Below, in pieces: positions 17,229-20,174 of a stretch of DNA of 33,721 nt (position 1 is the stretch's first letter; each line of letters opens with the position of its first letter). Origin of the DNA: Planctomycetaceae bacterium (GTDB lineage: Bacteria; Planctomycetota; Planctomycetia; Planctomycetales; Planctomycetaceae); the NCBI GenBank assembly GCA_015485495.1, contig WFTL01000123.1, forward strand, positions 1 to 33,721, read 5' to 3'. The translations under genes were made by a program, and so were the position numbers. A model generated the notes under the pieces. It was not told where the DNA came from and made no database searches. It worked only from the letters and a program-made list of their open reading frames with translations.

Positions 17229-19313
17229 ATGAAGCGACTGATCTGTCTGGCCATCGTGTGGTGCCTGTCGGCAGGCGGCGCGCATCCGCAGTCTTCCCGG
17301 CAGGAACGCCGGGAAGCGGAGCGATTCGCCGGGGCTCAGGAAGTCGTTTACAAAACGGTCGGAGACATCCGTCTGCGTGGCTGGGTGTTTCGGCCGCAGG
17401 AGCCGGCACCTGAACCGGGGCATCCGGCAGTTGTGTTTTTCTTTGGCGGCGGCTGGCGAACCGGGTCGCCTGCACAGTTCGTCGGCCAGTGTCGGCATCT
17501 GCAGCGTCGCGGGGTGGCGGGAATCGTCTGCGATTATCGGGTGGCGCGGCGGCACCAGGCGCGGATTGTCGACTGTGTGGAAGATGCGAAGTCCGCAATC
17601 CGCTGGTTCCGTCAGCATGCTGCCGAACTGAAGATCGATCCGCATCGGATCTGTGCGGCAGGGGGATCTGCCGGAGGACACATTGCCTGCTGCACCGGCC
17701 TGGTCAGCGGGCTGGACGCGGCAGGCGAGGATCTGTCGATCAGTTCCGTGCCGAATGCCATGGTGCTGTTCAATCCGGCCGTGCTTCTGGCTCCGCTCGA
17801 TGGCCTGGTGGTGTCTGAACGGTGGAAACGGAGTCTCGAAGAAATCGGGCGCAGGACGGGGACGGATCCGCGGCGGATTTCTCCCATGCACCAGATCAGG
17901 CCGGGGCTGCCGCCCACGCTGATTCTGCATGGTCGGAAAGACCGTGTTGTTCCGTACGAGTTCGTGGAGGAGTTTGTGCGGCGGAGCCGGGCTGCCGGAA
18001 ACGACATTCGCCTGGTCGGTTATGAGGGGGCTGCTCACGGATTTTTCAACCGCCGGCGTTCCGGGCGGGACGGGACGCAGCCGTCTCAGTCCTGGTACGA
18101 CCGCACTCTGGAAGAACTGGATCGGTTTCTTGGTGACCTGGGATGGATGGCCGGGGCGACGGCAGAACAATCGGATCCGGTACATGACGACCGTCACCTG
18201 AAGATTCGCCGTGGTCTGGATGCATCGCGTCGCGCCTTCGAAACGACCGGTCGCGGTCGAGTCGCCTTTCTTGGAGGATCGATCACGGAAATGGATGGTT
18301 ATCGCCCGCTGGTGGAGACCTGGCTGACGGAGCACTTTCCGCAGACGCAGTTCGAATTCGTCAATGCGGGAATCGCCTCCACGTGTTCTCACGCCGGCGC
18401 GTTTCGTCTGGAGCGGGATGTGTTCAGAGACGGGCCGGTGGATCTGCTGTTCGTGGACTTCGCGGTGAATGACGATCAGGACGCCGGTCACGGTTCGGAC
18501 GACTGTGTTCGGGGTGTGGAAGGGATTGTGCGGCACGCTTTGCTGACCGATCCGGAAACGGACATCGTTCTGCTTCATTTTCCCAACGATTCGATGCTCC
18601 GTACGTTTCGGGCCGGCAGGCAGCCGAAAGTGATTCGGGAGCACGAACGAGTGGCCGAACACTATGGGATTCCTTCGGTCAGTGTGGCCGGTTTCGCTGC
18701 TGATGCCATCGACCGCGGAGAACTGACGTGGGAGCAGTACGGCGGCACGCATCCTCACCGGCCCGGACAGCAGCTGGCAGCCCGCCTGACAGGCCGGCTG
18801 CTGACGGCGGGAATGCGGATCGGCCGTCCGCTGCGCCGGCGGGAATCGGCCGAACTGCCGTCTCCGATACGTGCAGATTCCTTCTGGTCGGGGCGGCTGA
18901 TTCCTGCAGCGGCAGCCGACGTGACCACTCAGGGGAACTGGCAGCGGGGAGCACCGGACTGGGACATGCTGCCCGGCCGCTGCCGTGATCGTTTCCGCCG
19001 GAGACCGCTTCTGTCGACCGTGTCTCCCGGAGCATTGTTGTCTCTGGATTTCATCGGGACGGCGGTCGGAGCCTGGGTGCTGGCGGGACCGGATGCCGCC
19101 GTGCTTGAATTCCGCATGGACGATGGTCCCTGGGAAAGCAGGGATCTGCTGCATCGGTGGAGCCGGGACCTGCATTATCCCCGCGTTGTTCTGTTCGGGG
19201 TCGGACTGTCGTCCGGGCGGCATCGGCTGGAGATCCGGGTTGCGGCTCCCCCGCGCCCCGAACGGGGATCTGCCGTCCGCATTCTGGATTTCGCTGTGAA
19301 CGGCCCGAAGTGA
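17229..19313 (+). CDS. Secreted two-domain esterase: alpha/beta hydrolase fused to SGNH hydrolase
   Basis: Predicted exported 694-residue protein with two separate serine-hydrolase domains. Residues 1-21 are a signal peptide (MKRLICLAIVWCLSAGGAHP). Residues about 38-305 are an alpha/beta hydrolase of the acetyl-esterase type: oxyanion loop FFGGGW (71-76), nucleophile Ser147 in GGSAGG, Asp238 in HGRKD, His270 in AAHGFFN. Residues about 340-530 are an SGNH (GDSL-like) hydrolase: Ser351 in GGSIT, Gly381 in NAGIAS, Asn414 in AVNDD, His508 in GGTHPH. The last 150 residues look like a beta-sandwich. Substrate is unknown; deacylation of acetylated polysaccharide is the best guess. Start chosen at the signal-peptide ATG; an earlier start at 17121 would bury it. 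It leads a likely operon with the sirtuin 36 nt downstream. Confidence 0.85.
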   Translation: MKRLICLAIVWCLSAGGAHPQSSRQERREAERFAGAQEVVYKTVGDIRLRGWVFRPQEPAPEPGHPAVVFFFGGGWRTGSPAQFVGQCRHLQRRGVAGIVCDYRVARRHQARIVDCVEDAKSAIRWFRQHAAELKIDPHRICAAGGSAGGHIACCTGLVSGLDAAGEDLSISSVPNAMVLFNPAVLLAPLDGLVVSERWKRSLEEIGRRTGTDPRRISPMHQIRPGLPPTLILHGRKDRVVPYEFVEEFVRRSRAAGNDIRLVGYEGAAHGFFNRRRSGRDGTQPSQSWYDRTLEELDRFLGDLGWMAGATAEQSDPVHDDRHLKIRRGLDASRRAFETTGRGRVAFLGGSITEMDGYRPLVETWLTEHFPQTQFEFVNAGIASTCSHAGAFRLERDVFRDGPVDLLFVDFAVNDDQDAGHGSDDCVRGVEGIVRHALLTDPETDIVLLHFPNDSMLRTFRAGRQPKVIREHERVAEHYGIPSVSVAGFAADAIDRGELTWEQYGGTHPHRPGQQLAARLTGRLLTAGMRIGRPLRRRESAELPSPIRADSFWSGRLIPAAAADVTTQGNWQRGAPDWDMLPGRCRDRFRRRPLLSTVSPGALLSLDFIGTAVGAWVLAGPDAAVLEFRMDDGPWESRDLLHRWSRDLHYPRVVLFGVGLSSGRHRLEIRVAAPPRPERGSAVRILDFAVNGPK

Positions 19314-19349: not shown

Positions 19350-20174
19350 GTGGCAGGGAGTGATGACGTGGCGGAAGCTGCCGGACAGATCTGCCGGTGG
19401 CTGAAGGAAACGGACCGCGTCTGTGCATTCACCGGAGCCGGAATCAGCACGGAAAGCGGAATTCCCGATTTCCGGTCGCCCGGCGGTGTCTGGTCGCGGT
19501 ATCGGACGGTGTATTTCGACGAATTCTGCGCATCGGCTGATGCACGGCACGAATACTGGAGGCAGAAAGCGGAAGCTCATCGTGAATTCCGCAGCGCGCG
19601 TCCCAATGTGACGCACCGGATGCTGGCGCGGCTGGAGACGGACGGACTGCTGCCTGGTGTCATCACCCAGAATATCGATGGGCTGCATCAGGAAGCCGGC
19701 AGCCGCCGCGTTCTGGAACTGCATGGAACGGCACGGGAGATCGTGTGTCTGGACTGTTCGTGGCGGGATGCGGCGGATCCCTGGGTGGAACGGTTTCTGG
19801 AAACCGGACAGGTTCCCGAATGTCCGCAGTGCGGAGGCAGGCTGAAACATGCCACGGTGTCCTTCGGCCAGTCGCTTCCGGCTGATGTTCTGCAGACGGC
19901 CATGGAATGGTCGGTGGGCTGTCGACTGTTTCTGGCTCTGGGTTCGTCTCTGGTGGTGGAACCGGCGGCGTCTCTGCCGCGTGCAGCCGCTCAGGCCGGA
20001 GCCCGTCTGGTGATCATCAATCGGGATCCAACGCCGCTGGATGCTCTGGCATCGCTCTGTGTGCGCGCGTCGCTGGGAGACGTTTTCACGTGTCTGCAGG
20101 AACTGTGGGACCGGACGGATCGGGAACGCACGAAGGTGTCTCGGGTTCCGCGGGAGAATTCCGGAGATTCGTGA
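19350..20174 (+). CDS. Sirtuin family NAD-dependent protein deacylase
   Basis: Cytoplasmic enzyme that removes acyl groups from protein lysines using NAD+; 274 residues. Motifs in order: GAGISTESGIPDFRSPGG (29-46) for NAD binding, QNIDGLH (107-113), catalytic His125 in LELHG, zinc site Cys133/Cys136 and Cys158/Cys161 (CLDC and CPQC), GSSLVVEPA (198-206). The GTG start at 19350 has GAGGAGAG (19337-19344) at good distance. The C-terminal tail is charged and without known motif. The stop overlaps the next start by one base (TGATG), so translation is coupled. A CobB-like role on acetyl-CoA synthetase would suit a neighbour that may release acetate; this is inference. Confidence 0.93.
   Translation: MAGSDDVAEAAGQICRWLKETDRVCAFTGAGISTESGIPDFRSPGGVWSRYRTVYFDEFCASADARHEYWRQKAEAHREFRSARPNVTHRMLARLETDGLLPGVITQNIDGLHQEAGSRRVLELHGTAREIVCLDCSWRDAADPWVERFLETGQVPECPQCGGRLKHATVSFGQSLPADVLQTAMEWSVGCRLFLALGSSLVVEPAASLPRAAAQAGARLVIINRDPTPLDALASLCVRASLGDVFTCLQELWDRTDRERTKVSRVPRENSGDS

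Follow-up and report, generated by a model that had tools for sequence, protein, structure and literature searches.

A planctomycete fusion of a TtEst2-like esterase and a CE17-like SGNH-CBM module without the usual catalytic aspartate, a candidate two-site deacylase

The window, the whole 33,721-nt stretch of DNA that was analyzed, carries a gene at 17229..19313 (+) that encodes a protein of 694 aa plus a stop. ORF, Pfam, and homologue alignment define it as one unbroken frame from the ATG at 17229 to the stop that ends at 19313; all of its features described below are on the same (+) strand. Its 5' neighbors are rpsL and rpsG, with rpoB further upstream, and its 3' neighbors are genes for a Sir2-type deacylase and EPSP synthase and KAS III-like genes. 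The gene of the Sir2-family protein deacylase (19350-20174, same strand) begins 36 bases past the fused gene. No CAZyme or sulfatase gene adjoins within the 33,721-nt window, and the housekeeping neighbors offer no functional clue.

By Pfam, residues 64-273 are an alpha/beta hydrolase (BD-FAE, 4.5e-27; Abhydrolase_3, 1.5e-20) and residues 347-516 an SGNH domain (Lipase_GDSL_2, 1.1e-13), and the active sites of both are conserved. The sequence-only reading of this DNA, which had described two hydrolases of different fold in one protein, was therefore correct on this point and in its siting of Ser147, Asp238, His270, Ser351, Asn414, and His508, all invariant in 16 fused proteins. It overlooked a third domain, at residues ~555-694. 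From the N terminus, the protein consists of a probable signal peptide (residues 1-21, MKRLICLAIVWCLSAGGAHPQ; 17229..17291), a TtEst2-like alpha/beta hydrolase domain (residues 25-310; 17301..18158), a linker of low confidence (residues 310-317; 18156..18179; pLDDT <50), a CE17-like SGNH hydrolase domain recognized by Pfam, profile, and structure matches (residues 325-533; 18201..18827), and a CBM35-like beta-sandwich domain (residues 555-694; 18891..19310). The AlphaFold2 model of the whole protein, built with 29 sequences, has a mean pLDDT of 87.8 and a pTM of 0.62; the second half modeled alone has a pLDDT of 87.3 and a pTM of 0.88. Export of the 694-aa protein is plausible, as the N terminus is signal-like, fused homologues have similar hydrophobic N termini, and TtEst2 is reported to be exported (PMC4655241).

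The nearest solved structure to the first half is that of TtEst2 (Thermogutta terrifontis esterase 2; 7bfn/5ao9; E 1e-79), whose host is a planctomycete (PMC4655241). TtEst2 superposes on the first half of the protein with a Z score of 41.8 over 275 aligned residues at about 46-47% identity. Alignment with TtEst2 (PMC4655241) assigns Ser147 (17667..17669) as the nucleophile, Asp238 (17940..17942) as the acid, and His270 (18036..18038) as the base, equivalent to TtEst2 Ser126, Asp216, and His248, respectively. These residues and F72-GGG-W76 are invariant in 29 aligned proteins. The FGGG oxyanion loop (residues 72-75; 17442..17453) had been singled out as a departure from the usual HGGG. Because FGGGW is present in 85 of 85 TtEst2-like ORFs, the remark fits the whole family and not one protein; TtEst2 itself has FFFGGGW at the same loop. 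An oxyanion hole formed by three amides, like the GGG-aromatic motif, is described as common in TtEst2's family (PMC4655241). On the match of fold, sequence, triad, and GGG-aromatic loop, we class the first half as a TtEst2-like esterase of alpha/beta hydrolase family 3.

Block V of SGNH enzymes normally reads DxxHP, with an Asp that is usual, not universal. In the second half of this protein, block V is GGTHP and the Asp is replaced by Gly505. Gly505-Gly506 (18741..18746) occupy the usual site of the catalytic Asp in the alignment of relatives, where 6hfz has DDLHP. Across 42 aligned relatives, position 505 is G in 38, K in two, R in two, and D in none; one group of relatives with a different N-terminal hydrolase has FRDLHP, with the Asp one residue nearer the His. 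The nucleophile Ser351 (block I, GGSIT; 18279..18281), the oxyanion residues Gly381 (block II; 18369..18371) and Asn414 (block III; 18468..18470), and the base His508 (block V; 18750..18752) are each conserved in 42 of 42 relatives, as are Trp501 and Glu431. Among the acidic positions, which include the invariant Glu431, no replacement acid could be established. Hence, the earlier claim of a full catalytic set in each domain holds for the alpha/beta triad and fails for the SGNH domain, as the block V Asp is absent from 42/42 relatives.

The conserved block Ser, Gly, Asn, and His identify the SGNH half, by sequence, as a member of the SGNH superfamily. Loss of the Asp alongside retention of all other active-site residues suggests a working site, and the SGNH half probably acts as a Ser-His dyad that is predicted to be active. 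The same loss, with Asp at -3 from the catalytic His in 0/42 relatives, could instead mean that only the alpha/beta hydrolase is catalytic and that the SGNH and CBM35-like domains form a carbohydrate-binding platform, and one article (PMC2661963) reports on a carbohydrate esterase active site whose functions diverge between catalysis and non-catalytic binding. However, a dead site is not expected, because Ser351, Gly381, Asn414, and His508 are invariant even in proteins lacking a second esterase. Moreover, many CE2 esterases are active Ser-His dyads in which backbone carbonyls orient the histidine (PMC9487903), and in VvPlpA the triad is Ser-His-chloride (PMC10412561). We therefore consider a purely binding role for the second half unlikely.

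No Pfam match was found in the C-terminal 140 residues. A profile of 16 sequences spanning the SGNH and C-terminal domains matched 6hfz across both domains (E 3.2e-30), and the second-half model superposed on this structure with a Z score of about 31-32 (30.9 in one run), covering 341/371 residues with an rmsd of 3.0 and ~20% identity. The structure is of RiCE17, a mannan 2-O-acetylesterase of Roseburia intestinalis that has SGNH and CBM35 domains and acts in concert with another, separate esterase (PMC9487903). Because a structure of SGNH plus CBM35 is matched across both domains, the C-terminal 140 residues are predicted to form a CBM35-like sandwich; in structure comparison, CBM35 2wz8 (TMt 0.63) is matched, as are CBM6 and CBM36 structures. 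The CBM35-like domain is found in every complete fused copy. The order typical of CE17, SGNH then C-terminal CBM35, is present, and the RiCE17-type DxxHP acid is absent. We designate the second half CE17-like rather than CE17, the likeness being at the level of fold only.

We surveyed 170 genomes of the source family (the source and 169 others) for the distribution of the fusion. Fused copies are present in 20 of the 169 other genomes, with 18 full-length and two cut by contig ends, and genome contigs yielded 15 fused loci, 14 from planctomycetes and one from a Bacteroidales metagenome-assembled genome (MAG). Fused orthologues from many separate genomes have 46-52% identity, and one copy belongs to a cultured relative, Planctomycetes bacterium K23_9 (L044). 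Many genomes encode the two parts in separate genes, which are mostly at distant sites. The survey proposed by the sequence-only reading thus recovered the same architecture in family relatives and one Bacteroidales MAG, and fused orthologues in so many genomes establish a genuine fusion, not split genes joined by a sequencing error. Likewise, error in assembly is ruled out by the 20 other family genomes and by the general lack of linkage between the parts elsewhere. The fused gene is dispensable, as neither of the two remaining genomes in its genus gives a match at E<=1e-30.

In the tree of the SGNH module, a single origin for all fused copies was rejected owing to the Bacteroidales copy (L049; AU p 1.5e-53), an assignment that rests on the MAG. 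A single origin of the planctomycete fused copies is compatible with the same tree (AU p 0.26), in which the source protein is on a long branch. In the tree of the alpha/beta hydrolase (ABH), one supported set contains 15 fused copies together with a single-domain one. No relatives were found in viral contigs.

The distribution also bears on whether the target is food polymers or polysaccharide of the cell's own envelope or matrix. The latter would fit the lack of an adjoining polysaccharide-degradation gene and a match of the SGNH domain to Ape1, a peptidoglycan O-acetylesterase (Z 16.6). RiCE17, however, is matched much more strongly (Z 31), and patchy presence among relatives suits a dietary over a structural role, which leaves an envelope target very improbable.

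Both modules are found with other partners. In ~14 proteins, the alpha/beta hydrolase fused to the SGNH+CBM module is of a different kind; in a further protein the module is fused to a sulfatase domain (L132:296-2800, minus strand; PF00884, 1.7e-25; the N terminus of the sulfatase is outside the stretch examined), and in yet another to a beta-helix domain (L140). The TtEst2-like hydrolase is joined to a BNR-repeat, sialidase-like domain in a Rhodopirellula-type genome (L064:3917-5977) and, as assigned by near-identical sequence, in a second such locus (L066:3917-5977). In Pelagicoccus, it is joined to a SASA (CE6-like) esterase (L093:3929-6268), a second way of pairing a TtEst2-like hydrolase with an SGNH-fold esterase. 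One 2242-aa frame (L138:272-6997) ends in the SGNH+CBM module and has no Pfam match in its first ~1840 residues. At one fused locus, two tandem sulfatase genes are directly upstream of the esterase gene and on the same strand (L036:443-3844). A rough motif scan, without a proper background, placed sulfatase neighbors at one of the 15 fused loci and at 14 of the 65 with a single domain; we give these counts no weight as a clue to the fused gene.

The repeated joining of the SGNH+CBM module to polysaccharide-tailoring enzymes favors a polysaccharide substrate and is the best indirect support for one. Alternatively, the protein could be a general exported esterase, with halves that act on unrelated small esters and a fusion that has no substrate logic. 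TtEst2 prefers short pNP esters, with pNP-acetate its best substrate (PMC4655241), and this, the housekeeping neighbors, and the usual separation of the two parts in other genomes would all be in keeping with such an enzyme. But a CBM35-like domain in every complete copy and independent fusions of the module to other enzymes, sulfatase included, argue against a general esterase, as does the action of RiCE17 on mannan (PMC9487903). We judge a general esterase to be a poor prospect.

We favor, with a probability of about 0.6, a bifunctional enzyme that is secreted and deacylates a polysaccharide or an oligosaccharide. The alpha/beta hydrolase (Ser147-Asp238-His270) would strip small acyl groups, probably acetyl, with an oxyanion hole of three amides, to which the GGG loop and the residue that follows the Ser contribute. 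The CE17-like SGNH domain (Ser351-His508; oxyanion Gly381/Asn414) would take acetyl off another position or from another setting; in place of an Asp, a main-chain carbonyl, a water, or some other side chain would orient His508. The CBM35-like domain may pack on its SGNH neighbor in the manner of RiCE17 and help hold the sugar chain, and the two sites may cooperate on one polysaccharide. Each half resembles a known acyl esterase, the counterpart of the SGNH half being a polysaccharide deacetylase with a binding domain, and in fused CE6-CE1 enzymes both halves are active, with one pair synergistic (PMC7110780); by analogy, these argue for a deacylase. Retention of the fusion in 20 other family genomes and invariance of the catalytic residues besides the SGNH acid are also consistent with it. 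Arguing against a deacylase are the housekeeping neighbors, the absent SGNH acid, the same-genus genomes without a match, the ~20% identity to RiCE17, and that TtEst2 is reported on artificial esters only in the literature searched.

Planctomycetes are regarded as having a major part in the breakdown of complex and often sulfated polysaccharides, and little is known of how they remove acyl groups. We tentatively suggest that there is a widespread, undescribed family of SGNH-CBM esterases without the block V Asp that, when repeatedly joined to polysaccharide-tailoring enzymes, might give rise to two-site enzymes for a polymer with both acyl and sulfate groups. If both sites are active, the protein would be a natural two-site deacylase composed of parts with solved relatives, which makes the halves amenable to study both singly and in combination. 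The SGNH subfamily that lacks the acid is also a clean case in which to ask how such a site works without an aspartate.

The protein shares with TtEst2 (5ao9, 7bfn; PMC4655241) its fold, triad, FGGGW, ~47% identity over residues 25-310, and probable export, whereas TtEst2 is a single-domain enzyme with neither an SGNH nor a CBM part. RiCE17 (6hfz, 6hh9; CE17) likewise has an SGNH followed by a CBM35-like domain, with 341/371 residues superposed, but differs in its ~20% identity, in having DDLHP where GGTHP is found here, and in having no second esterase domain. CE2 dyad esterases (PMC9487903) are also SGNH carbohydrate esterases without the block V Asp; their accessory domain is N-terminal and their block V motif has a Trp, whereas here the motif is GGTH and the accessory domain C-terminal. 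In the open-access literature searched, we found no account of a TtEst2-CE17-like fusion. Esterases are joined in one protein in Fll4, which has three CE domains (PMC12247016), and in BoCE6-CE1 and FjCE6-CE1 of Bacteroidetes, each with an acetyl esterase (CE6) and a feruloyl esterase (CE1), both active and in one of them synergistic (PMC7110780). Relative to the CE6-CE1 enzymes, the order is reversed and the families are others: the TtEst2-like domain is first and the CE17-like SGNH-CBM second, and Pfam gives BD-FAE/Abhydrolase_3 and Lipase_GDSL_2 with no SASA. Fusions of SGNH and alpha/beta-hydrolase esterases are thus already known from CE6-CE1, and the TtEst2-CE17-like pairing is a variant of them.
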